A stretch of DNA of 64,000 nucleotides from Pseudomonas viridiflava (lineage in GTDB: Bacteria; Pseudomonadota; Gammaproteobacteria; Pseudomonadales; Pseudomonadaceae): NCBI RefSeq assembly GCF_900589395.1, contig NZ_UUIS01000001.1:184603-248602 (forward strand). The letters are read 5' to 3'. The notes beneath the pieces are model-generated. The model was not told where the DNA came from. It was given only the letters and a program-made list of their open reading frames with translations, and made no database searches. A program made the position numbers and the translations under genes. Positions 1,360 through 58,891 of the stretch are shown here, in pieces. Each line of letters opens with the position of its first letter. Within the stretch, counting starts at the first letter, position 1.

Positions 1360-4191
1360 TTAAACAGTGAAGGCATCTTGCAGCAGTTTTTCCTGCTGCT
1401 CGGCGTGTATCGAAGCGTAGCCACAAGCCGGTGCGGCAGAGGCATCACGACCGGCATACTCGAGCACGAGGTTGCGGTTGTGATTGCCGATGCTGCGGCG
1501 CAGGTGATGCTGGCTGCTGTACCACGCGCCCTGGTTCATCGGCTCTTCCTGACACCAGACCACGTGCTTGAGGTTGGCATAAGGCGCGATGGCCTCCATC
1601 AGGTCGTCCTCAGGGAACGGATACAGCTGTTCGATACGCACGATGGCGATGTCTTCACGACCTTCGGCACGGCGCTTCTCGAGCAGATCGTAGTAGACCT
1701 TGCCGCTGCACAGGACCAGACGCTCGACCTTGGCAGGATCCTGGGTGTCGATTTCCGGGATCACGGTCTGGAACGAACCATGTGCCAGATCTTCCAGGGT
1801 CGAGATGGCCAGTTTGTGACGCAGCAGCGACTTGGGCGACAGCACGACCAGCGGCTTGCGCAGCGGGCGGATGACCTGGCGACGCAGCAAGTGGTAGATC
1901 TGTGCCGGCGTGGTCGGTACGCAAACCTGGATGTTGTGCTCGGCGCACAGCTGCAGGTAACGCTCCAGACGTGCAGACGAGTGCTCCGGGCCCTGCCCTT
2001 CATAACCATGAGGCAGCAGCATGGTCAGGCCGCACAGACGACCCCACTTGTGCTCGCCGCTGGTGATGAACTGGTCGATCACCACCTGGGCACCGTTGGC
2101 GAAGTCGCCGAACTGGGCTTCCCAGATGACCAGCGCGTTAGGCTGGGTGGTCGAATAGCCGTATTCGAACGCCAGCACGGCTTCTTCCGACAGGAACGAG
2201 TCGTACAGGTCGAAGTTGGGCTGGTTCGGCAGCAGGTTCTTCAGCGGCACATAGGCGCTGGCGTCTTTCTGGTTGTGCAGTACCGCATGGCGGTGCGAGA
2301 ACGTGCCGCGACCGACATCCTGCCCGGTGATACGGATCGGATGGCCTTCGAACAGCAACGTGGCGTAGGCCATGGTCTCGGCGTAGCCCCAGTTGATCGG
2401 CAAGCCACCGGCCTGCATCTTCTGGCGGTCTTCGTAGATCTTCTGCACCTGACGCTGGACCACGAGACCTTCAGGCAGCTCCAGCAGCTTGGCGGAGAGT
2501 TCCTGCAGGGTCTTGAGGTCGAAGCTGGTGTCGTGACGCGCGGTCCAGGCATGGCCCAGGTAAGGACGCCAGTCGACGAACAGCTCGCGGTTCGGCTCCT
2601 TGACCAGGCTCTTGACCACGTGCTGACCATTGTCGAGCGCGTTGCGGTAGTCGTCGATCTTGGCCTGGACACCGGCCTCGTCGAACACGCCCGATTTGAT
2701 CAGTTGCTCGGCATACAGTTCACGGGTGGTGCGCTGCTTGGTGATCTGCTGGTACATCAGCGGCTGGGTGCCGCTTGGCTCGTCGGCCTCGTTGTGGCCG
2801 CGACGACGGTAGCAGACCAGGTCGATGACGATGTCACGCTTGAACTGCATGCGGTAATCGATCGCCAGCTGGGTGACGAACACCACCGCCTCGGGATCAT
2901 CGCCGTTCACGTGCAGGATCGGTGCCTGGATCATCTTGGCCACGTCGGTTGCATACTCGGTGGAGCGTGCATCCAGCGGGTTGCTGATGGTGAAGCCAAC
3001 CTGGTTGTTGATCACGATGTGCACGGTGCCGCCGGTCTTGAAACCGCGGGTCTGCGACATCTGGAAGGTTTCCAGGACCACGCCTTGCCCGGCGAAGGCA
3101 GCATCGCCATGCAGGGAGATGGGCAGGACCTTTTCGCCGCTCGAATCGTTGCGGCGATCCTGGCGGGCACGAACGGAACCTTCGACCACCGGAGAGACGA
3201 TCTCCAGGTGCGAGGGGTTGAAGGCCATGGCCAGGTGGACTTCGCCGCCTGCGGTCATGACGTTGGACGAGAAGCCCTGGTGGTACTTGACGTCACCGGA
3301 ACCGAGCTCGACCACTTTCTTGCCTTCGAACTCGTCGAACAGCTCGCGCGGGTTCTTGCCGAAGGTGTTGACCAGTACGTTCAGACGGCCACGGTGGGCC
3401 ATGCCGATCACGACTTCCTTGACGCCGTAGGACCCGGAACGCTGGATCAGCTCGTCGAGCATCGGAATCAGGCTTTCGCCGCCTTCCAGGCCGAAACGCT
3501 TGGTGCCGGGGTACTTGGTGCCCAGGTATTTTTCCAGGCCTTCGGCAGCCGTGACGCGCTCAAGCAGGTGGGCCTTGTTCTCGGCGGAAAACGCCGGGCG
3601 GCCGCGTACGCTTTCGAGGCGCTGCATGAACCAGTTGCGCTGCTCGGAATCGACGATGTGGGCGAACTCGGCCCCGATGGTGCGACAATATGTCTGCTCC
3701 AACGTCTCGTGGATTTCACGTAGGCTCGCTTCCTCCTTGCCGATGAACAGGTCGCCGGCACGGAACACGGTGTCCAGGTCCGCATTGGTCAGGCCGTAAT
3801 GGTTGATCGACAGATCAGCCGGCACGGGACGTTGCCACAGCCCCAGCGGGTCGAGCTGGGCCGCCTGATGGCCGCGTACGCGGTACGCCTGGATAAGCCG
3901 CAACACTTCAACCTGCTTCTTCTCGTGCTCGCTGCTCACGCTGCCGGCAGACACCGGTTGGGCGCGGCGCTGGTTTTTGGCCAGCAACACGAAATGATCG
4001 CGAATTGTCGAGTGCGATACATCGGTGGCAGAGCTGCCAGTGGTCGGCAACGTCTGAAAGTAGGTGCGCCATTCATCTGGCACAGCGTTAGGGTCGTGCA
4101 GGTAGAGCTCATAGAGCTCTTCCACATAGGCAGCGTTACCACCGGAAAGGTGGGCACTGTTCCACATGCGCTGCATCACGCTTTCTTGCAT
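1360..4191 (-). CDS. sucA: 2-oxoglutarate dehydrogenase E1 component
   Basis: This is the thiamine-diphosphate E1 subunit, which decarboxylates 2-oxoglutarate and succinylates the E2 lipoyl group. The 943 residues match the usual family length. The N-terminal E2-contact segment ([20 protein letters not shown]) is followed by the E1 core with [30 protein letters not shown] and NGDDPEAV (ThDP/Mg2+ and substrate pocket) and a C-terminal transketolase-like pyrimidine-binding domain. The gene lies between sdhB and sucB in the standard Pseudomonas order. A 257-base spacer containing a GC-rich hairpin separates it from sdhB, so it may have an extra transcript end or promoter. GAGG precedes the ATG by about 11 bases. 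Confidence 0.97.
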
Positions 4192-4378
4192 GCTTGGTCA
4201 CCCTCGGTAAGGGGACACCACCGGCGAAGACCCAAAGCATGCCTGAGACGGTCGTGTGCAGCGACCAAAACAAGTCACCAAGGATCACGCAGATAGTCCG
4301 GGTACCAGCCCGGATGCCCCTGCTGGTCTCATTTCTTCAAAGTTAGAGCGGCAGCCTTGCGAGCCACGACTCTGGTTA

Positions 4379-4409
4379 AACCGTGGGGCGGGTTTTGCCC
4401 GCGCCACGG
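4379..4409 (-). terminator. GC-rich hairpin between sdhB and sucA
   Basis: CCGTGG...CCACGG arms enclose inner CGGG/CCCG arms around an A-rich loop. On the minus strand the hairpin follows the sdhB stop by about 40 bases and is followed by only three T residues. It is therefore a weak terminator, or an mRNA-processing hairpin that could lower sucAB relative to sdhCDAB. The rest of 4192-4448 shows no credible gene. Confidence 0.45.
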
Positions 4410-4448
4410 CAGCTTTCGGTACAGCGGTGTAACGGTTACAGCGATGTA

Positions 4449-5153
4449 TCAGACACCGTTGCTGAGCAACATGTTGCGTACGTGACCGATTGCCTTGGTT
4501 GGGTTAAGGCCTTTCGGACAGACGTTGACGCAGTTCATGATGCCGCGGCAGCGGAACACACTGAACGGATCGTCCAGCGAAGCGAGACGTTGAGCGGTGT
4601 AGGTGTCGCGGCTGTCGGCCAGGAAGCGATAGGCCTGCAGCAGGGCCGCAGGGCCCAGGAACTTGTCAGGGTTCCACCAGAAGGACGGGCACGAGGTCGA
4701 GCAGCAAGCGCACAGGATGCACTCGTACAGACCATCAAGCTTCTCGCGCTCTTCCGGGCTTTGCAGACGTTCGATGGCCGGAGCCGGCGTGTCGTTCTGC
4801 AGGAATGGCTTCACCTTCTCGTACTGCTTGTAGAAGATGCTCATATCGACGACCAGGTCACGAATGACCGGCAGCCCAGGCAGCGGGCGCAGCACCAGTT
4901 TGTTGCCCTTGACTGCGGCCGACAGCGGCGTGATGCAGGCCAGGCCGTTCTTGCCGTTGATGTTCATGCCATCGGAACCGCATACGCCTTCACGGCACGA
5001 GCGACGGTACGAGAAACCCTCGTCCTGTTCCTTGATCAGGGCCAGCACATCCAGAACCATCAGGTCCTTGCCACCGGTGTCGACGTTGAAGACCTGAGTC
5101 TTGGGTGCCGAGTCGGTGTCAGGGTTATAGCGATAAACTTCGACTTTCAGCAT
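4449..5153 (-). CDS. sdhB: Succinate dehydrogenase iron-sulfur subunit
   Basis: This is the electron-transfer subunit of respiratory complex II and carries three Fe-S clusters. The product is 234 residues. The [2Fe-2S] ligands are in SCREGVCGSDG (C53, C58, with Asp as in E. coli) and GLAC (C73); CILCACCSTSCP binds the [4Fe-4S] cluster and CRGIMNCVNVCPKG supplies the [3Fe-4S] ligands. The ATG at 5153 is chosen over 5162 because TGAGG, which overlaps the sdhA stop, is spaced 9 bases from it but abuts the upstream ATG. The gene is translationally close to sdhA. Confidence 0.96.
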   Translation of the reverse strand: MLKVEVYRYNPDTDSAPKTQVFNVDTGGKDLMVLDVLALIKEQDEGFSYRRSCREGVCGSDGMNINGKNGLACITPLSAAVKGNKLVLRPLPGLPVIRDLVVDMSIFYKQYEKVKPFLQNDTPAPAIERLQSPEEREKLDGLYECILCACCSTSCPSFWWNPDKFLGPAALLQAYRFLADSRDTYTAQRLASLDDPFSVFRCRGIMNCVNVCPKGLNPTKAIGHVRNMLLSNGV

Positions 5154-49986: not shown

Positions 49987-50916
49987 ATGCCCATTTCATT
50001 CAAACGCCGCCCCATGCTGCGCGTGCTGCTGGCCGGCCTGTTCGCCGCCCTGCTCACCCCTGTGGCCAGTGCCGACGCGACCAAGCGCCTGCGCATCGGC
50101 ATCACCCTGCATCCTTACTACAGCTACGTGAGCAATATCGTCGGCGACAAGGCCGAGGTGGTGCCGTTGATTCCGGCAGGCTTCAACCCGCACGCCTACG
50201 AACCGCGCGCCGAGGACATCAAGCGCATCGGCTCGCTGGACGTGATCGTGCTCAACGGTGTCGGTCATGACGACTTCGCCGACCGCATGATCCAGGCCAG
50301 CGAGAAACCGGATGTACCGGTGATCGAGGCCAACGCCGACGTGCCATTGCTGGCCGCTACCGGCATTGCCGCGCGCGGCGCCGGCAAGGTGGTCAACCCG
50401 CACACCTTCCTGTCGATCAGCGCCTCCATCGCCCAGGTCAATAATATTGCCCGCGAACTGGGCAAGCTTGACCCGGACAACGCCAAGGCCTACACCGCCA
50501 ACGCCCGCGCCTATGGCAAGCGCTTGCGGCAGATGCGTGCCGATGCCCTGGCCAAGCTGACCCAGGCGCCCAAGGCCGAACTGCGGGTGGCCACCGTGCA
50601 CGCAGCTTACGATTACCTGCTGCGTGAATTCGGCCTGGAAGTGACGGCAGTGGTGGAACCGGCCCACGGTATCGAGCCCAGCCCGAGCCAGTTGAAAAAG
50701 ACCATCGATCAGTTGCGTGAGCTGGACGTGAAAGTGATCTTTTCGGAAATGGACTTCCCTTCCAGCTACGTCGACACCATCCAGCGCGAGTCGGGTGTGA
50801 AGCTGTACCCGCTGTCGCACATTTCCTACGGCGAATACACCGCCGACAAGTATGAAAAAGACATGAAGGGCAACCTCGACACCGTGGTCCGCGCCATTCA
50901 GGAGAGCGGCGCATGA
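49987..50916 (+). CDS. fpvC: FpvC-like TroA-family periplasmic metal-binding protein
   Basis: This is the solute-binding protein of the FpvCDEF ABC system. The 309 residues have a signal peptide (VLLAGLFAALLTPVASA) and cluster A-I metal-binding features: PAGFNPHAYEPRAEDI, VVNPHTFLSISASI and VEPAHGIEPSPSQL each supply a His, and an acidic ligand is likely in the C-terminal region. The His-rich loop of zinc-specific ZnuA is missing. In P. aeruginosa FpvC binds the iron-releasing pyoverdine system's metal and FpvF binds ferripyoverdine. A general Zn/Mn transporter would be the alternative from domains alone; operon order argues against it. Confidence 0.85.
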   Translation: MPISFKRRPMLRVLLAGLFAALLTPVASADATKRLRIGITLHPYYSYVSNIVGDKAEVVPLIPAGFNPHAYEPRAEDIKRIGSLDVIVLNGVGHDDFADRMIQASEKPDVPVIEANADVPLLAATGIAARGAGKVVNPHTFLSISASIAQVNNIARELGKLDPDNAKAYTANARAYGKRLRQMRADALAKLTQAPKAELRVATVHAAYDYLLREFGLEVTAVVEPAHGIEPSPSQLKKTIDQLRELDVKVIFSEMDFPSSYVDTIQRESGVKLYPLSHISYGEYTADKYEKDMKGNLDTVVRAIQESGA

Positions 50917-51665
50917 CCGCTGCCGAACACATCCAGGTCGCCCATCAGGGCCCGGGCATCGAATTTTCCGAAGTCAGCCTGACGCTGGGCCGCACCACGA
51001 TCCTGGACCGCATCAGCTTCGACGTTCACGCCGGCAGCGTGCATGCACTGGTCGGCCCCAATGGGGGCGGCAAGAGTTCGCTGATCAAGACCCTGCTCGG
51101 CCAGATGCCGCACCAGGGCCAGCTCAGCCTGCTGTGGCCAGGCGCCCAGGGCGTGATCGGCTACGTGCCGCAGGCACTGGAATTCGATCGCGGCCTGCCG
51201 ATGACCGTCGAGGACTTCATGGCTGCCATGTGCCAGCGGCGCCCGGCCTTCCTGGGGCTGTCGCGGCACTATGCCGGACCCATTGGCGAGGCGCTGGAGC
51301 GGGTCGGCATGCAGGACAAGCGCAAACGACGCATGGGCGCGCTGTCGGGCGGCGAGCGCCAGCGCGTGCTGCTGGCGCAGGGCCTGATTCCGGCACCGCA
51401 CCTGCTGGTGCTTGATGAGCCGATGTCGGCCCTCGACGAACCCGGCATCCAGGTGTTCGAGCGGCTGCTGGTCGACTGGCGTCAGAGCGGCATCACCGTA
51501 CTGTGGATCGAGCACGACCTGGAAGCGGTCAAGCGCCTGGCCGACCGGGTGACCGGCCTGAATCGCCGGGTGCTGTTCGATGAGCCGGCGCACACGGCCC
51601 TGACGCCTGAACGGCTGTTGACGCTGTTTTCCGCCCATCCACGCAGTGCCGGGAGTGCCCAGTGA
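50913..51665 (+). CDS. fpvD: FpvD-like ABC transporter ATPase
   Basis: The 250-residue nucleotide-binding protein has Walker A GPNGGGKSSL, signature LSGGERQR, Walker B LLVLDEPMSALD and the H-loop in WIEHDLEAV. It is of the metal-type family and is encoded with a four-base overlap (ATGA) after fpvC. It powers the permease encoded next. Confidence 0.92.
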   Translation: MTAAEHIQVAHQGPGIEFSEVSLTLGRTTILDRISFDVHAGSVHALVGPNGGGKSSLIKTLLGQMPHQGQLSLLWPGAQGVIGYVPQALEFDRGLPMTVEDFMAAMCQRRPAFLGLSRHYAGPIGEALERVGMQDKRKRRMGALSGGERQRVLLAQGLIPAPHLLVLDEPMSALDEPGIQVFERLLVDWRQSGITVLWIEHDLEAVKRLADRVTGLNRRVLFDEPAHTALTPERLLTLFSAHPRSAGSAQ

Positions 51666-52564
51666 TGTCCTACGAAAGCTTTCGGCTGTTGATCCAGGAC
51701 CTGGCCAATTCAGGCTACCTGCCCGAGTCGCTGGCCTATGGGTTTGTGCTCAACGCGCTGCTGGCCGGCATGCTGATCGGCCCGGTGCTGGGCGGCCTGG
51801 GCACCTTGGTGGTGGTCAAGCGCTTTGCATTCTTCTCTGAAGCGGTCGGCCATGCCGCGCTGACCGGCGTGGCCATTGGCATTCTGTTGGGCGAACCCTA
51901 CACGGGCCCGTATGGCAGCCTGTTCGGTTACTGCCTGCTGTTCGGCATCGTGCTCAATTACTTGCGCAACCGTACCGGCCTGACGCCCGACACCCTGATC
52001 GGCGTGTTCCTGTCGGTGTCGCTGGCGTTGGGGGCCAGCCTGCTATTGGTGCTGGCCGGCAAGATCAACGTGCATATTCTGGAAAACGTACTGTTCGGCT
52101 CGGTGCTGACGGTCAACAGCAACGACCTGCTGGTACTGGCCATTGTCGGCGCACTGGTCATGGGCCTGAGCCTGCCGCTGTACAACCGCATCATGCTGGC
52201 CAGCTTCAATCCGCAACTGGCGGCCGTACGCGGTGTGGCGGTCAAGGTGCTGGACTACCTGTTCGTGATTCTGGTGACCCTGATCACCGTGGCGGCGGTC
52301 AAGGTCATCGGTGCGATTCTGGTCGGCGCCCTGCTGGTCATCCCGGCCGCCGCCGCACGCTTGCTCAGCCAGTCGCTCAAGGGTTTTTTCTGGGCCTCGG
52401 TGCTGATCGCCACGGTCAGCACCCTGTGCGGCATTTTGCTGCCCATCGTCTTCGACCTGCCCGTGCCGTCGGGTGCTGCGATCATCCTGGTCTGCGGCGC
52501 GGCCTTCGCCCTGGCCGCCATTGCCCGCGGCACCCTGCCCAGCCTCAAGGGAAATATCGGATAA
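51662..52564 (+). CDS. fpvE: FpvE-like ABC transporter permease
   Basis: The 300-residue inner-membrane protein has about eight hydrophobic helices and belongs to the ZnuB/TroC-type ABC-3 permeases (GTLVVVKRFAFFSEAVGHAAL, VKVIGAILVGALLVIPAAAARLL). It overlaps fpvD by four bases. A second ATG is the next codon, so the true start may be residue 2. Confidence 0.9.
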   Translation: MMSYESFRLLIQDLANSGYLPESLAYGFVLNALLAGMLIGPVLGGLGTLVVVKRFAFFSEAVGHAALTGVAIGILLGEPYTGPYGSLFGYCLLFGIVLNYLRNRTGLTPDTLIGVFLSVSLALGASLLLVLAGKINVHILENVLFGSVLTVNSNDLLVLAIVGALVMGLSLPLYNRIMLASFNPQLAAVRGVAVKVLDYLFVILVTLITVAAVKVIGAILVGALLVIPAAAARLLSQSLKGFFWASVLIATVSTLCGILLPIVFDLPVPSGAAIILVCGAAFALAAIARGTLPSLKGNIG

Positions 52565-53512
52565 ATGCCCACTTCAAACCTGCACCGCCTCGTTCTTGCC
52601 CTGGCCCTGGGCGGCCTGTTCAGCCACAGCGTGCTGGCCGCCCAGGCACAACCTGCTGCCTCCCAGGCCTCGGCGACCCCGGCAGCGACCAAGCCGGTAC
52701 GGATTCTGGCCAGCCTGCCGATCACCTATGGCCTGGGGCAGATCCTGCTCAAGGACACCGGCGTGGTACTGGAACGCGCCGCTGCGGCCAACCTGCCAGG
52801 CTCGCGGCAGAGCGCCTATTTCACCGGACGCGGCGCCGAGGCGTTGCACAGGCTGGCCACGGATGCCGATGCGGTGATCGGCCTGCGCTCGATCTGGGGC
52901 GAAGACTCGCTGTACCCCAATGCGCGGCGCAGCAATATCCGCATTGTCGAGATCGACGCGGCGCGTCCTGTCGACGGTGCCCTGCCCGGTGTTGCCCTGC
53001 AGGCCGGACAAGGTATCGACGGCCTCAACAGCCAGCCCTGGCTGGCCAGCCACAATCTGGGGCGCATGGCCGATGTCTTGAGCGCCGACCTGGTGCGCCT
53101 GGCACCTGAGGCCAAGCCACGCATCGAAGCCAACCTGGCGGCCTTCAAGCAACAGTTGCTCACCCTCAGCGCCGACAGCGAAAAACGCCTGGCCCAGGCC
53201 GACAATGTGGCGGTGGTGAGCCTGTCCGATCGCTTGAACTACCTGATCAGCGGGCTCAACCTGGAGCTGGTCGAGCGCCAGGTACTGACCGATGAGCAAT
53301 GGACACCCGCGACCTTGCAGAAGCTGACCACCACCCTCAAGGACAACGAGGTCGCGGTGGTCCTCGACCACCGCGAGCCACCGGCACCGGTCAAGGCCGC
53401 TATCAGTGCCGCCGGCAGCCAGTTACTGGTACTGGGCAGCGAAAACGACGACCCGCTGGCCGGGCTGCAACAGGATGTCGACCTGCTGCTCAAGGCGCTG
53501 ACCAAAGGCTGA
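52565..53512 (+). CDS. fpvF: FpvF-like second periplasmic binding protein
   Basis: The ATG directly follows the fpvE stop (TAAATG). The 315-residue product has a signal peptide (ALALGGLFSHSVLA) and an Ala/Pro/Gln-rich linker (about 26-45), then a TroA-like fold that lacks the three-His metal site of FpvC (ILASLPITYGLGQILLKDTG; YFTGRGAEALHRLATDADAV). P. aeruginosa FpvF binds ferripyoverdine, so two binding proteins in one operon is expected here. It ends at a strong terminator. Confidence 0.83.
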   Translation: MPTSNLHRLVLALALGGLFSHSVLAAQAQPAASQASATPAATKPVRILASLPITYGLGQILLKDTGVVLERAAAANLPGSRQSAYFTGRGAEALHRLATDADAVIGLRSIWGEDSLYPNARRSNIRIVEIDAARPVDGALPGVALQAGQGIDGLNSQPWLASHNLGRMADVLSADLVRLAPEAKPRIEANLAAFKQQLLTLSADSEKRLAQADNVAVVSLSDRLNYLISGLNLELVERQVLTDEQWTPATLQKLTTTLKDNEVAVVLDHREPPAPVKAAISAAGSQLLVLGSENDDPLAGLQQDVDLLLKALTKG

Positions 53513-53573: not shown

Positions 53574-54095
53574 TCAATGGCTGGCGTGCAGCAGAGGCTG
53601 GACCTGCGGCATTGCCGAAGAGTGGTGATTGAGAATCTTCCACTTCCCGTCCACCTGGGTGTACAGGAAGGTGTAGCGCGCCTGAACTTCGCTGATTTTG
53701 CCGTCGGCGGCGGTCAGGGTGAAGGTGTAGACGCCGCTGTCCATGGCAGCCGTTGGGCCCAGGCTGCGGATTTCCCGATAGTTGATCCGCCCTACCGGCT
53801 TGAGCACCAGGAAGTGATCGAAGTAATCACTGATTTGCGTCGGTGTGGCACGCACTTCATTGGACACCGTCGGTTGCAGCACCGCGTTGGTGGCATACAG
53901 GCCGGTCACGGTCTTGGCGCTGCCGGTCTTGAGGGCGGCATTCCACTGGTCGAACAATCCGGCAATTTCACGTTCGCGGCTGTCGCTCGGCAGTTCGGCC
54001 ACTGTGCGGTACACGTACGGAGTGGTTTCAACGGCCTGGACCCAAGGCGCACTGACGGCCAGGGCCAGGGCTACAACGACGGTTTTCAATTTCAT
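53574..54095 (-). CDS. Exported NTF2-like / CaMKII-association-domain protein
   Basis: The 173-residue product has a signal peptide (VVVALALAVSAPWVQA) followed by an NTF2-like cone domain of the SgcJ/EcaC or CaMKII_AD type: REREIAGLFDQWNAALKTGS, VTGLYATNAVLQP, and RYTFLYTQVDGKWKILNHHSS. Such proteins are small-molecule-binding or polyketide-cyclase-like; function is unknown. It is divergent from the histidine kinase operon, so it may be one of its targets (inference). Confidence 0.75.
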   Translation of the reverse strand: MKLKTVVVALALAVSAPWVQAVETTPYVYRTVAELPSDSREREIAGLFDQWNAALKTGSAKTVTGLYATNAVLQPTVSNEVRATPTQISDYFDHFLVLKPVGRINYREIRSLGPTAAMDSGVYTFTLTAADGKISEVQARYTFLYTQVDGKWKILNHHSSAMPQVQPLLHASH

Positions 54096-54175
54096 GACAT
54101 TTCTCCTTCACGTTGGTCAGGCCACTACTGTGCCGGGCTTGGAGAACGGGGCCATCGGCCAACCGGCGTCTTTTT

Positions 54176-54197
54176 CCTATGCCATTCGGCAGATAGG
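54176..54197. promoter_or_regulatory. Inverted repeat between the secreted protein gene and the kinase operon
   Basis: CCTAT...ATAGG with inner GCC/GGC arms (CCTATGCC ATTC GGCAGATAGG) forms a 22-base imperfect dyad in the divergent region. It is a candidate site for the NarL/LuxR-type regulator encoded downstream; this is inference. Confidence 0.35.
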
Positions 54198-54271
54198 CAG
54201 GCAGGGGTCCGACAGGTTCTAATGGCGCATGATTGCCCGCACAAGCGCGCGCCCCTGCAGGAACGTCCTAC

Positions 54272-55459
54272 ATGCCTACCTCCTCCCACGATCCGGCCAG
54301 CGCCCTGGCCATCCGCGCGCATTACCGGCAGGCCCAAAGCCGTGCAGCACGCTTGCGCCTGCTGGTGGACACCGGCCAGCAATTGACCGGCCTGGCCCCT
54401 GAGGCCATGCGCCAACAGGTCCTGCAGCGCGCCTGCGCCTTCGTGGCCATGGACCATGGCCTGCTGCTGGAATGGCCTGCGGACAGGACCGCCTGCTGCA
54501 CCGCCAGCCTGGGCAGCCATGAACGCCTGGGCAGCCTGGTCGGGCACGCGGACACCACACTGCGCCAGCCTGCCTGGCTGGAAACAGCCGACACGCCACT
54601 GCATGCCGTACTGCAACTGCCCCTGCGCGGTGCCGACGACCGCACGTTCGGCCTGTTGCTCCTGGCCAACAGCCTGCCCATCAGCGCGCCCGACAGCGAA
54701 GACATCGAGTCGCTACAATTGCTCGCCACCTTGCTGGCCGCCCACCTGGAAAACAATCGCCTGCTGCAGACCCAGATCAGCCGTGAACGCAGCATGTCGG
54801 AGCTGGTGCATCGCCTGTTCACTGCCCAGGAAGACGAACGCAAGCGCATGGCCTATGACCTGCATGATGGGCTGGCGCAATCTCTGGCCGGCCTGCACCA
54901 GCGCCTGCAAGGCTTTGCCGGGCGCTGCCCGTCGCTGCCTGCCCCACTGGACGGCGACCTGGAAAACATTCTCGACCTGGCCCGGCATTGCGTGGGCGAA
55001 GCGCGCCAGCTGATCGGCGGCCTGCGGCCCAGTGTGCTGGACGACTTCGGCCTGTGGCGCGCCATCGACAAGGAAGCCGACCGCCTGCGCGACGCCGGTA
55101 TCGACGTGCACTGGCAGGCCCGCTCGCACGAGCGCCTGCCGCCTTCGGTCGAAATCGCCCTGTTTCGTATCGCCCAGGAAGGCATCAACAACGTCCTCAA
55201 GCATGCCGGGGCACAGCGTGTCGAGCTGGGTCTGCAACACCACGGCCAACAGGTGTCGCTGCACCTGAGCGATGACGGCTGCGGTTTCGATATCGACAGC
55301 CTGCAACCTCATCACCCGGCCAGCTCGCTGGGCCTGGTCACCATGCAGGAGCGCGCCAGCCTGCTGGGCGGGCATTTCAGCTGTATCCGTTCGTCCGCTG
55401 GCGGTACACGGTTGCAGACCCGCGTGCCCCTGGCCCCGGCACAGCAGGTGCAGCCATGA
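54272..55459 (+). CDS. GAF-domain sensor histidine kinase, NarX/HisKA_3 type
   Basis: The ATG at 54272 (AGGAACG 6 bases upstream) gives 395 residues with no membrane segment, so it is likely cytosolic. A GAF-like domain (about 20-180; ACAFVAMDHGLLLEW, LLLLANSLP) precedes the HisKA_3 domain, where the phosphorylated His lies in ERKRMAYDLHDGLAQSL, and a HATPase_c domain (FRIAQEGINNVLKHA N-box, DDGCGFD). It overlaps the response regulator gene by four bases, so the two form a kinase-regulator pair. Confidence 0.92.
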   Translation: MPTSSHDPASALAIRAHYRQAQSRAARLRLLVDTGQQLTGLAPEAMRQQVLQRACAFVAMDHGLLLEWPADRTACCTASLGSHERLGSLVGHADTTLRQPAWLETADTPLHAVLQLPLRGADDRTFGLLLLANSLPISAPDSEDIESLQLLATLLAAHLENNRLLQTQISRERSMSELVHRLFTAQEDERKRMAYDLHDGLAQSLAGLHQRLQGFAGRCPSLPAPLDGDLENILDLARHCVGEARQLIGGLRPSVLDDFGLWRAIDKEADRLRDAGIDVHWQARSHERLPPSVEIALFRIAQEGINNVLKHAGAQRVELGLQHHGQQVSLHLSDDGCGFDIDSLQPHHPASSLGLVTMQERASLLGGHFSCIRSSAGGTRLQTRVPLAPAQQVQP

Positions 55460-56109
55460 CGCCCCCTCTGCGCCTGGTGCTGGCCGATGACCATGAAGTG
55501 ACCCGCACCGGGTTTGTTTCCATGCTGGCCGGCCATCCCGAATTCGTCGTGGTCGGCGAGGCCTGTGACGGCCAGCAGGCCGTGGACATGTGCCAGGCCC
55601 TGAAACCCGATATCGCCATCCTCGACATCCGCATGCCGGTGCTCAACGGCCTGGGGGCCGCCCGCCTGCTGCAACAGTGCATGCCCGGCCTGAAAGTGGT
55701 GATGTTCACCATGGATGACAGCACCGATCACCTGGAGGCGGCGATCAGCGCCGGGGCTGTGGGCTACCTGCTCAAAGATGCCAGGCGCGAAGAAATGATC
55801 GCCAGCCTGCAACGCGTGGCCCGTGGCGAGGAAGCCCTGAACGGCGCGGTCAGTGCCCGCCTGCTGCGGCGCATGGCCGAGCGCGGCGGGCAGGCGGCAC
55901 CGGCCCTGGAAACCCTGACCGCCCGTGAGCGTCAGGTGCTGGCGCTGGTTGCTGGCGGCTGCAGCAACCGGGTCATCGGTGAACGCCTGGGGATTACCAC
56001 CGGCACGGCCAAGGCGCATGTCGAACGGGTCATCGGCAAACTGGGCGCATCCGACCGCACCCAGGCTGCGGTGCGGGGCGTGGCCCTGGGTCTGGTGCCC
56101 GGCCAATGA
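55456..56109 (+). CDS. NarL/LuxR-type response regulator
   Basis: The 217-residue product has a receiver domain (VLADDHEVTRTGF acidic pair; phospho-Asp in IAILDIRMPVLNG; Thr in VVMFTMDDS; Lys in YLLKDA) and a C-terminal LuxR HTH (TARERQVLALVAGGCSNRVIG). It is overlapped on both sides by ATGA junctions, linking it to the kinase upstream and the hybrid kinase downstream. The targets are unknown; the dyad at 54176 is one candidate. Confidence 0.93.
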   Translation: MTPPLRLVLADDHEVTRTGFVSMLAGHPEFVVVGEACDGQQAVDMCQALKPDIAILDIRMPVLNGLGAARLLQQCMPGLKVVMFTMDDSTDHLEAAISAGAVGYLLKDARREEMIASLQRVARGEEALNGAVSARLLRRMAERGGQAAPALETLTARERQVLALVAGGCSNRVIGERLGITTGTAKAHVERVIGKLGASDRTQAAVRGVALGLVPGQ

Positions 56110-58430
56110 CCGAGGTCATGCACACACCGGCCAGTCGCTGGGCCGACCTGCCGCTGCGCGGCAAGGCACTGGTGGCCATCTCTTTGCCGCTGGTCTTGTT
56201 GATGGGGTCGCTGATACTGATTTACATCACCGAGCGCCAGACAGCTCAAGCCGAGGAAGATGTGCGCCGGGTTCTGCTGGTCCAGGGCGATATCCAGACC
56301 GTGCACACCCAGTTGGCCGAAGCGGCGGCCAGTGTCCGTGGTTATCTGCTGACCCGCCACGAAGACTTCCTGCCGGCCTATCGGCAGGCCGGCGCCCTGA
56401 TCGAAGCCGCCCGCCAGCGCCTCAATGACAACGTGCGCGACCCTCAGATGCGCGAACACCTGCAGGCCATCGCGCCGCTGATTGCCTCCAAGCTCGAGGG
56501 CCTGGCGGCCTTGCACAACCTGCAACCGGCCGAACGGGACTTGATCTCGGCGATTCTGGTAGAGAACAAGTCGATTCTCGACGAGCTGCGCCAGCGCATC
56601 GACACCATGCGCACGCGCGAAGACACGTTGCTGGCCGAGCGCACGGCGGCCGCGGCGGCCACCCGCCAGCGCCTGCTGTTCTCGACCCTGCTTGCCGCCG
56701 GTTGTGGGCTGTTCGGGGCGATCATTGCCGTGCTGTTGCTGACGCGAGGCATCGTCGCCCGGGTCCAGCAAGTGCAAGGCAACGCCCAGCGCCTGGCGCT
56801 CGGCCAGCCCTTGTGGCCGCAGCCGCCGGAAAACGATGAGGTCGGCCAGTTGGGCAGCCGCCTGGTGGAGGCCGGTCACCTGCTGACCGAGCGTGAACGG
56901 GCCTTGCGCGATAACGAAGAACGCTTGCGGCTGATCATCGACGGGGTCAAGGACTATGGGATCTTCGCCCTGGATATCCACGGCAGTGTCACCAGCTGGA
57001 ACGTCGGCGCCGAGCGCATCAAGGGCTACACCGAACAGGAAATCATCGGCCGGCACTTTTCGGTGTTCTACCTGCTCGACGAATGCCCGGACCATCCGGC
57101 CAGGGCCCTGGAAGCCGCCACACGCGACGGCCACTACATGGAAGAAGGCTGGCGCTGCCGCAAGGATGGCAGCCGGTTCTGGGCCAGCGTGGTCATCACC
57201 GCCCAGTACGATGCCAGCGGCGCCCTGCGCGGGTTTTCCAAGATCACCCGTGACATCACCGACCGTCGCGCCGCCGAAATCGACCTGCGCAATGCACGCG
57301 AGCTGGCCGAACGCGCCAGCCGGGCAAAAAGCGAATTCCTGTCGCGCATGAGCCATGAACTGCGCACGCCCCTGAACGCCATTCTGGGGTTTGCGCAATT
57401 GCTGGACATGGACGCCGCACCGGGCCAGGCCACTCATGCCAGGCACATCCTGCGCGCAGGCCAGCACCTGCTGACCCTGATCAATGAAGTGCTGGACATC
57501 GCGCGCATCGAGGCCGGTCGCCTGGCCCTGAACCTGGAGCCGGTGGCCCTGGGTCCGGCCTTGCAGGAAGCGCTGACGCTGGTCTGGCCCATGGCCACAG
57601 AGGCAGGCATCGAACTGAGCCCGCTGCCCCTGCACATCGACGATCATGGTGTGCTGGCCGATCGGCAACGACTGATCCAGGTGCTGCTGAACCTGCTGTC
57701 CAACGCCATCAAGTACAACCGTCCGGCAGGCCGGGTGTGGGTCGAAGTGCAGGCGCGTGCCGGGCGCCTGGGCATTTCGGTCAACGACACCGGGCATGGT
57801 ATTGCCACCGACAAGCTTGAGCGCCTGTTTACCCCTTTCGAACGCCTGGAGGCCGACCCGCGCGTCGAAGGCACCGGCCTCGGCCTGGCGTTGAGCAAAA
57901 ACCTGCTGCAGGCCATGCAGGGCACCTTGACGGTACACAGCACACCCGGGCAAGGCTGTCGCTTTACCCTTGAACTGCCCGTTGCACAGGCACAGCGTGC
58001 TGCGGCCGTCGCGTTGCACCTGCCGGCCTTGCCGGCCGCGCCGGCGTTGCACAATCGCGGCACCGTGCTGTGCATCGAAGGCAACCTGTCGAGCATGGCC
58101 CTGATTGAAACCCTGCTGCAACGTCGGCCGGGCATCGGCCTGTTGTCGAGCATGCTCGGCCAGCTGGGCCTGGACCTGGCCCGCCAGCACGCGCCGCAGC
58201 TGATCCTGCTGGACATCGACCTGCCGGATTTGCCGGGCCTTGAGGTCTTGAGGCGCCTGCGTGAGTGGCCCGCCACGGCACAGACGCCCGTGATCATCCT
58301 GACCGCAGACGCCAGTCACCTGGGCCGCAGCACCCTGCAAGCGGCCGGTGCTACCGCGACCCTGGTCAAACCCCTGCATGTACCAGGCTTTCTCGCCTAT
58401 CTGGACCAGTACTTACCGGAGCCTGAATGA
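56106..58430 (+). CDS. Membrane hybrid histidine kinase (CHASE3-PAS-HisKA-HATPase-REC)
   Basis: The 774-residue protein has two membrane helices (about 20-42 and 188-215) bracketing a periplasmic CHASE3-type helical domain (VHTQLAEAAASVRGYLLTRHEDF). A PAS domain (about 265-390) precedes HisKA with the phospho-His H417 in RMSHELRTPLNA, and HATPase_c with LLNLLSNAIKYN, DTGHGIA and GTGLGLALS. The C-terminal receiver (about 655-770) keeps the phospho-Asp (LILLDIDLPDLPG) and Lys (VKPL), but its usual acidic pair reads CIEGN, with one Asp lost. It overlaps genes on both sides by four bases. Confidence 0.92.
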   Translation: MTEVMHTPASRWADLPLRGKALVAISLPLVLLMGSLILIYITERQTAQAEEDVRRVLLVQGDIQTVHTQLAEAAASVRGYLLTRHEDFLPAYRQAGALIEAARQRLNDNVRDPQMREHLQAIAPLIASKLEGLAALHNLQPAERDLISAILVENKSILDELRQRIDTMRTREDTLLAERTAAAAATRQRLLFSTLLAAGCGLFGAIIAVLLLTRGIVARVQQVQGNAQRLALGQPLWPQPPENDEVGQLGSRLVEAGHLLTERERALRDNEERLRLIIDGVKDYGIFALDIHGSVTSWNVGAERIKGYTEQEIIGRHFSVFYLLDECPDHPARALEAATRDGHYMEEGWRCRKDGSRFWASVVITAQYDASGALRGFSKITRDITDRRAAEIDLRNARELAERASRAKSEFLSRMSHELRTPLNAILGFAQLLDMDAAPGQATHARHILRAGQHLLTLINEVLDIARIEAGRLALNLEPVALGPALQEALTLVWPMATEAGIELSPLPLHIDDHGVLADRQRLIQVLLNLLSNAIKYNRPAGRVWVEVQARAGRLGISVNDTGHGIATDKLERLFTPFERLEADPRVEGTGLGLALSKNLLQAMQGTLTVHSTPGQGCRFTLELPVAQAQRAAAVALHLPALPAAPALHNRGTVLCIEGNLSSMALIETLLQRRPGIGLLSSMLGQLGLDLARQHAPQLILLDIDLPDLPGLEVLRRLREWPATAQTPVIILTADASHLGRSTLQAAGATATLVKPLHVPGFLAYLDQYLPEPE

Positions 58431-58891
58431 ACGCCGACTTTCGTATCCTGATCATTGATGATCAACGCCCCAATCTGGAACTGATGGAACACTTGCTGGC
58501 CCGCGAAGGGTTGCACAACGTACTGAGCAGCAGCGAGCCGCTGCGTACCCTGGACCTGTTCAACGGCTTCGAGCCGGACCTGGTGATCCTGGACCTGCAC
58601 ATGCCCCAGTTCGATGGTTTTGCCGTGCTCGAGCAACTGAACCGCCGCATCCCTGCCAACGACTACCTGCCCATCCTGGTACTGACGGCCGACGCGACCC
58701 GCGACACCCGCCTGCGAGCCCTGGCGCTGGGGGCCCGGGACTTCATCAGCAAGCCCCTGGATGCACTGGAAACGATGCTGCGCATCTGGAACCTGCTGGA
58801 AACACGAGCCTTGTACAAACGGCTGCGGCAACTGGTGCCGCCCGAGTCGATCGAGTTGCTGCGCCAGCACACCGCACCAACGCCGTCTTGA
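58427..58891 (+). CDS. Stand-alone receiver-domain response regulator
   Basis: The 154-residue product is a complete receiver domain (RILIIDDQRPNLELM, phospho-Asp in LVILDLHMPQFDG, LTADA, ISKPLD) with a short helical tail (RALYKRLRQLVPPES) and no DNA-binding domain. The tail resembles the linker in RpfG-like proteins but lacks the HD-GYP domain. It overlaps the hybrid kinase by four bases and probably acts through protein contact or as a phosphate relay or sink. Confidence 0.9.
   Translation: MNADFRILIIDDQRPNLELMEHLLAREGLHNVLSSSEPLRTLDLFNGFEPDLVILDLHMPQFDGFAVLEQLNRRIPANDYLPILVLTADATRDTRLRALALGARDFISKPLDALETMLRIWNLLETRALYKRLRQLVPPESIELLRQHTAPTPS

Follow-up and report, generated by a model that had tools for sequence, protein, structure and literature searches.

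What does a two-component operon with two sensor kinases regulate when it stands back to back with the gene for a small exported protein? The question is raised by a locus of Pseudomonas viridiflava (assembly GCF_900589395.1, contig NZ_UUIS01000001.1, positions 184,603 to 248,602 of the forward strand); this whole stretch of 64,000 nucleotides is referred to below as the window. A preliminary description had read the four operon genes as a phosphorelay and had mentioned the divergent, exported NTF2-like protein in passing. That side remark is likely to have touched the point of the system. The best explanation of the five genes, to which a probability of about 0.7 is assigned, is that they form a module dedicated to the control of an exported iota-class carbonic anhydrase; such control is the most likely function of the operon. 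In kind, it is a two-component module whose parts are familiar and whose architecture and target are new. The genes are as follows, in window coordinates.

53574-54095, minus strand: iota-carbonic anhydrase homologue of the COG4875 / SgcJ-EcaC type, CaMKII_AD fold, 173 residues (Pfam, NCBIfam)
54272-55459, plus strand: HK1, soluble HisKA_3-type histidine kinase with HisKA_3 and HATPase_c domains (Pfam) and a weak GAF match; phospho-acceptor region and N box intact
55456-56109, plus strand: RR2, NarL-type response regulator with Response_reg and GerE domains (Pfam); proposed ligand of the operator
56106-58430, plus strand: HHK3, membrane hybrid kinase with CHASE3, PAS, HisKA, HATPase_c and Response_reg domains (Pfam)
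58427-58891, plus strand: REC4, lone Response_reg domain (Pfam) with a short C-terminal extension

Judged from its sequence and a predicted structure, the divergent protein is a COG4875-type iota-carbonic anhydrase homologue. Its AlphaFold model (mean pLDDT 82.2) finds its best structural match in 3h51 from Xanthomonas campestris (Z 25.2, rmsd 1.2 over 140 residues, 59% identity), and the next structural match reaches only Z 16.6. In the portions of the papers drawn on here and below, 3h51 is called an iota-carbonic anhydrase (PMC8425729) or an “apparent” one (PMC8132391), many bacteria are said to carry members of the class, labelled SgcJ/EcaC oxidoreductase (PMC8425729, PMC6776030), and the mark of the class is given as a C-terminal (H)HHSS motif (PMC8425729, PMC6776030), reportedly absent from other NTF2-like and CaMKII domains (PMC6776030). 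The window protein carries NHHSS at residues 156-160 (HHSS at 157-160), and HHSS is kept in all 42 loci compared, namely the window and 41 loci with flanks (seven genomes and 34 named Pseudomonas contigs; L062-L064, three of 37 loci, have distant kinases and were dropped before the counts). Equally invariant are T76, Y91, H157 and S159, which correspond to Thr106, Tyr124, His197 and Ser199 of the metal-free COG4337-type enzyme AspCA when mapped by motif rather than by superposition on 7c5v; the AspCA numbering fits the printed chain (the T of KPT, the Y of AYF, the first H and the first S of HHSS). In the Anabaena enzyme, mutation of Thr106, Tyr124, His197 or Ser199 is reported to have abolished activity (PMC8132391). 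Carbonic anhydrase activity may thus be expected of the window protein from its sequence and model.

Other functions of the same fold, namely that of the CaMKII hub, of ketosteroid isomerase or of SgcJ-type proteins, were considered and set aside: the fold is common to all of them, but HHSS is reportedly not shared by other NTF2-like domains (PMC6776030). AspCA and a second COG4337-type enzyme, BnaCA, were absent among the Foldseek and VIA-align matches listed; BnaCA was found by sequence, and the profile of the window protein matches it weakly. Signal-peptide-like N-termini were recognised by eye in the window protein and in two rhizobial relatives. The papers, as far as they are represented here, disagree on whether COG4875 enzymes need a metal (PMC8425729, PMC8132391), describe the COG4875 and COG4337 subtypes as seldom occurring together in one genome (PMC8132391), and report induction of the diatom iota enzyme at low CO2 (PMC6776030).

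That the four genes and the divergent exported gene form one unit is supported by their distribution. The preliminary description had proposed a survey of the co-occurrence of the operon with the divergent gene, and among 298 Pseudomonas genomes the set is not scattered: HHK3 and HK1 occur in an identical 67, and the enzyme gene is found at E < 1e-54 in the same 67 (a set that leaves out six weak matches and a second copy in genome G018). REC4 is present in 66 of these genomes and is missing only in G306, where the HHK3 match stops at residue 736. The HK1 and HHK3 matches lie on one strand and 650-710 bp apart in 67/67, which leaves room for RR2 (not itself searched for in those 67), and REC4 follows HHK3 after 0-68 bp in 66/66. 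All five genes, RR2 included, stand in constant order in the 41 loci with flanks. Chance neighbourhood was rejected on the grounds of the identical presence and the constant spacing. The surroundings vary across the 41 loci, with usp and dusA downstream in nine and in the window and with other neighbours in other lineages. The distances of the five proteins also correlate (Mantel r 0.84-0.95, with 0/999 permutations as high; 41 rows, the row of locus L021 being left out for all five genes in the distance and identity comparisons). This correlation speaks for joint inheritance rather than function, because shared descent alone would yield the same.

The three ATGA junctions reported earlier, each a stop/start overlap of four bases, are confirmed at 55456-55459, 56106-56109 and 58427-58430, and all four genes lie on the plus strand in the order HK1, RR2, HHK3, REC4. 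The overlap is well kept in relatives (41/42, 40/42 and 40/42 loci at the first, second and third junction, the remainder being at +2 or unlisted), and at the first junction the exception, L021, still has ATGA in its sequence. ATGA junctions are frequent in bacterial operons, and the fixed stoichiometry that had been read from these overlaps does not follow. HK1 probably starts at the ATG at 54272, because the long form is conserved only from residue 14-15 onward and relatives start there; the TTG at 54233, also considered, is not conserved.

Several local peculiarities were met along the way. The closest named locus to the window genome (G000) is that of P. ovata F51, at 91% identity on the hybrid kinase, and only in these two of the 42 loci (P. 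ovata being L028) is the enzyme gene adjoined by znuC, znuB and a ZnuA-like gene (window 50913-53512); the adjacency of znu genes to an enzyme of a class that possibly needs metal may or may not be a coincidence. P. protegens (L053) is among the species that carry the module. In P. cichorii MAFF 302096 an additional partial RR2-HHK3 copy lies inside the operon (L029:7361-8980). In G018 (L021:4313-5545) the enzyme gene is tandemly duplicated, and the operator described next is duplicated with it.

The gap between the enzyme gene and HK1 contains the following elements.

54126-54134, minus strand: candidate -10 of the enzyme promoter, TACTGTGCC here (read by eye) and CACTTTGCC-like in relatives
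54153-54195, no strand: putative double-dyad operator of 43 bp, CATCGGCC-N4-GGNG-N9-TATGCC-N4-GGCAGATR, with dyad centres near 54162.5 and 54185.5, 23 bp apart
54219-54224, plus strand: candidate -10 of the kinase operon promoter, TCTAAT

The dyad across which the exported gene had been described as divergent is thus a double one, and the exported gene does belong to the unit. The 43-bp block emerged, at fixed length, from alignment of the enzyme-HK1 gaps in 42/42 loci. With up to three mismatches its pattern matches once in the window, whereas 100 shuffles gave no match; 69 of the 298 Pseudomonas genomes contain it, among them all 67 that carry the module, in each of which it lies between the divergent genes. 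It is single-copy in 65 of the 67, G018 having a second operator before the duplicated enzyme gene and G290 an extra three-mismatch match. Controls with the whole pattern reversed gave no matches. Both candidate promoters keep their distance from the operator: a CACTTTGC-like stretch lies 27 nt from it on the enzyme side in 38/43 elements (as scored with a permissive pattern, which misses five, the window's copy included), and TNTAAT lies 21 or 22 nt past it on the operon side in 40/43. Such fixed distances are as expected if one regulator drives both promoters.

The operator might instead belong to a general regulator of the cell, with RR2 acting elsewhere and the genes being neighbours by ancestry only. 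Single-box patterns do match elsewhere in these genomes, as would suit such a regulator. A general regulator should, however, leave sites in genomes that lack the module, and apart from one common three-mismatch sequence near dusA in G093 and G309, the whole element was not found in the other 231 genomes; this explanation is accordingly regarded as very improbable. An open-frame criterion for judging stray matches proved useless. True operators also lie under stop-free stretches, of 229-494 codons, in these G+C-rich genomes, so that the open frames over the G093 and G309 matches are uninformative.

The dedicated control of an iota-carbonic anhydrase gains weight from what accompanies the operon outside Pseudomonas. 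The genome samples cover that ground thinly: in a family sample of 148 genomes the kinase was found at E 1e-110 or better in two of 19 genera, G331 being the only genome of another genus, and a phylum sample of 235 genomes (E 1e-100) added just one further set from beyond Pseudomonas, in G498, with G521 showing the kinase core only. G331 and G498 both carry complete sets. Plasmids gave 58 records, of which 9/50 from Rhizobium, Agrobacterium and Phyllobacterium, 3/3 from Asticcacaulis and 3/5 others (Cupriavidus L134, Gemmatirosa L129, Arthrobacter L132) were examined. The best plasmid matches to HHK3, at 42-48% identity, come from the three rhizobial genera, and all nine rhizobial loci examined have the five genes, with the SgcJ/EcaC gene divergent. 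Paired GCC-N4-GGC dyads lie in the enzyme-HK1 gap 23 bp apart in 9/9 rhizobial loci and 26 bp apart in 3/3 Asticcacaulis loci, and these two layouts occur once in the remaining 157 kb of those loci. In Rhizobium etli IE4771 REC4 is cut off from its operon by an IS110-family transposase gene, which stands between it and HHK3 (L128:8102-9037).

The three Asticcacaulis loci (L127, L135, L136) have the same four-gene operon and paired dyads, but their divergent gene is of the COG4337 type. The L127 protein is identical to AspCA at 105/162 residues and scores 264 bits against the NCBIfam family “metal-independent carbonic anhydrase”, whose cut-off is 350; the proteins of the L135 and L136 plasmids are 97-98% identical to it. 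Asticcacaulis excentricus CB 48 is one strain with the metal-free enzyme type. That one iota type can give way to the other while the operon stays argues that the operon is there to serve the enzyme. No COG4875-type gene was found in L134, L129 or L132, and no COG4337-type gene in L134 or L129 or, as judged by annotation, in L132.

An unrelated pair of regulators points in the same direction. A HAMP kinase of about 540 residues and an OmpR-type regulator adjoin iota-carbonic anhydrase genes of both types: COG4337 in Agrobacterium, Peteryoungia and Paracoccus (L137-L139) and COG4875 in Cupriavidus and Variovorax (L144, L155-L157). The pair lies at these positions.

L137:4911-7824; L138:4905-7847; L139:4908-7831: OmpR-type pair beside COG4337-type genes
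L144:1376-4372; L155 and L156:3923-6825; L157:4001-6906: OmpR-type pair beside COG4875-type genes

Among close matches to that kinase, 10/10 plasmid records carry an iota gene; five of these were seen as loci (L139, L144, L155-L157), and five, all Agrobacterium, were recognised by a COG4337 match. In Cupriavidus sp. EM10 the OmpR-type regulator matches in separate pieces (L144:3009-3675), which may reflect a broken gene or a sequence error. With two unrelated regulator families each found beside both enzyme types, dedicated control of the enzyme is the simplest reading where such a system is present.

These loci also bear on the possibility that the exported protein is a periplasmic sensor partner, which would take up an anion or a small molecule into its cone and report to the CHASE3 domain of HHK3, much as TorT and CpxP are accessory proteins of their kinases. 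The protein is probably exported and always lies beside the membrane kinase operon, facing the same operator, and the NTF2 fold is often a binding pocket. The Asticcacaulis exchange, which puts a very different protein of the other iota type in the same place, is nevertheless hard to reconcile with a specific partner; the catalytic positions are kept in 42/42 loci, and the OmpR-type pair, which is unrelated, accompanies both iota types as well. A sensor partner is therefore judged improbable.

How, then, might the module work as a control circuit for the enzyme? The domain assignments made earlier hold for the HisKA_3 kinase, the NarL-type regulator, the CHASE3/PAS hybrid kinase and the lone receiver; the GAF domain of HK1 is a weak call, because its 20.1 bits fall under the gathering score of 22.4 (Pfam). 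The H box and N box of HK1 are kept in 41/41 usable rows (HK1 of L021 being left out), the histidine of HHK3 in 42/42, and the catalytic receiver residues of RR2 and of REC4 are complete in 42/42 each. REC4, which distantly resembles the PleD and DivK receivers, is conserved more strongly than any other protein of the module (its sequences are on average 85.6% identical in pairs, those of HHK3 76.1%; 41 rows) and is present in every module locus read with flanks. HHK3's own receiver is looser. Its second acidic position is D in 39/42, G in the window and P. ovata, and E in L050, and the whole domain is absent in five of the nine rhizobial loci (L122, L124, L128, L130, L133) and in Asticcacaulis, as judged by Pfam for L122 and L127 and otherwise by the length of the CDS or the extent of the match. 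Because that receiver is altered or absent while REC4 is kept in all these loci and best conserved, the pairs proposed are HHK3-REC4 and HK1-RR2. On the Cupriavidus necator plasmid L134 (5857-8717) a PAS-HisKA-REC hybrid kinase related to HHK3 overlaps a receiver 42% identical to REC4, which is fused to an output domain that reads from its sequence as nucleotide-cyclase-like; the arrangement was counted in favour of the HHK3-REC4 pairing.

In a true phosphorelay, as the preliminary description had it, RR2 would receive phosphate from both kinases, by way of the hybrid receiver and a histidine phosphotransfer (HPt) protein whose gene lies outside the operon, and REC4 would act as a phosphate sink. 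Relays do typically contain a hybrid kinase and a lone receiver, and the genes are inherited together, as the Mantel correlation indicates. No HPt domain was found, however, among the Pfam matches of the four operon proteins, to which the search was confined, and the hybrid receiver that a relay would need is the domain that has lost its second acidic residue in the lineage of the window and is missing from the rhizobial and Asticcacaulis loci just named, in which REC4 persists. A strict relay is judged unlikely; a convergence of the two sensors on one regulator may occur.

In the circuit preferred here, HK1 would phosphorylate RR2, and phospho-RR2 would bind the 43-bp operator as two dimers, one per dyad, and switch on both divergent promoters, so that the enzyme would rise together with its own sensors in a positive feedback. 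RR2 is the presumed ligand of the operator and would activate rather than repress, since the dyads lie near the expected -35 position. HHK3 would read the outside through its extracytoplasmic CHASE3 domain and pass phosphate mainly to REC4, which would adjust HK1 or drain phosphate, and the inside and outside readings would thus be merged before RR2 acts. The signal is most likely tied to CO2, bicarbonate or periplasmic pH. This wiring, with HK1-RR2 and HHK3-REC4 as pairs and REC4 linking the two, is tentative, and in exactly this form would sooner prove wrong than right.

Several observations weigh against a dedicated control module for an iota-carbonic anhydrase. Iota genes occur without it: six more Pseudomonas genomes lacking the module have weak enzyme matches (E 1.1e-32 to 4.4e-31), and in the two of these that were inspected (L153:4204-4719 and L154 near 4102-4548; SgcJ/EcaC, 44-45% identity) no relative of HK1, RR2, HHK3 or REC4 lies within 9 kb. 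Of the seven non-Asticcacaulis COG4337 plasmid loci inspected, three (L137-L139) have the OmpR-type pair, and the other four (L140, L141, L145, L146) have neither the module nor the pair annotated; both Enterobacterales COG4875 loci examined likewise have neither control system. Several of the alphaproteobacterial loci are near-copies, so that they amount to fewer than twelve independent cases. As for the protein, the NTF2/CaMKII fold by itself reveals no function, the assayed COG4875-type enzymes named in the portions of the papers at hand are those of Burkholderia territorii and a diatom rather than 3h51, and no feature links the sensors to CO2. The operator, too, is less tidy than a single dedicated site would suggest. 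Its first dyad (GGNG) is less perfect than the second in Pseudomonas. With one mismatch, box B finds only the known site in the window genome; the 13 other module genomes yield 20 extra matches, spread over 11 of them, where the reversed pattern has 7, and this excess leaves a wider regulon open. The idealised palindrome YATCNGCCNNNNGGCNGATR, which fails to match the boxes of the window's operator, has 8-28 sites per genome at one mismatch, against 0-2 for the reversed pattern, in 14 Pseudomonas genomes including G000; codon usage or real sites may account for it.

The open-access literature, in which the Greek letter iota is not searchable and subscription journals are mostly missing, was searched both for this gene set and for iota-carbonic anhydrases under two-component control, and no paper on either was listed. 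Iota is the most recently named carbonic anhydrase class in those portions of the literature met here, and its role in non-photosynthetic bacteria is the question at stake. The operon gives a handle on that role, since whatever signal switches the operator on would show when the cell needs the enzyme. The module would also be a compact test bed for the way in which one operon combines two kinases, and the replacement of a COG4875 by a COG4337 enzyme next to this operon is a natural experiment on both subtypes. A still broader picture, of a closed and portable CO2/bicarbonate (or pH) circuit in which two kinases reach one decision through one operator on one enzyme of either iota type, across alpha- and gammaproteobacteria and as the first genetic control of the class in bacteria, is held at a little under even odds.

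Among known systems, the nearest to the divergent protein are the COG4875 iota enzymes (XcaCA 3h51, BteCA of Burkholderia territorii and LCIP63 of a diatom), with which it has in common the fold, the CaMKII_AD/SgcJ-EcaC assignment, HHSS, the T/Y/H/S positions and, as judged by eye, a signal-peptide-like start; it differs from them in being known here from sequence and model. Genetic control of the bacterial iota enzymes is not described in the portions consulted of PMC8425729, PMC8132391, PMC7191908, PMC6776030 and PMC8775594. The metal-free COG4337 enzymes (AspCA 7c5v, BnaCA 7c5x) are the subtype that occupies the place of the COG4875 enzyme beside the same operon in Asticcacaulis, and the window protein belongs to the other subtype.

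On the regulatory side, HK1 and RR2 have the domain types of NarX-NarL-like pairs, and the right-hand dyad, TATGCCN-NN-NGGCAGA, fits 7-2-7, the operator layout of NarL-type regulators. HK1, however, is soluble, and the scores fall under the NCBIfam equivalog cut-offs (HK1 69.9 bits against 578 for NarX, RR2 154.8 against 250 for NarL). Assignment to NarX-NarL or to any other named system was rejected, as genes 1-4 all score under the cut-offs among the NCBIfam matches shown (for genes 2-4 the best 25 of 85-128); this agrees with the preliminary description, which had recognised no named system, and neither do these matches or the open-access literature searched offer one. HHK3 followed by REC4 resembles the pairs of a hybrid kinase with a lone receiver of the connector type, such as DivK. 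What sets the HHK3-REC4 pair apart from these is that it shares one operon with a second, NarX-like pair and is coupled to an enzyme gene.

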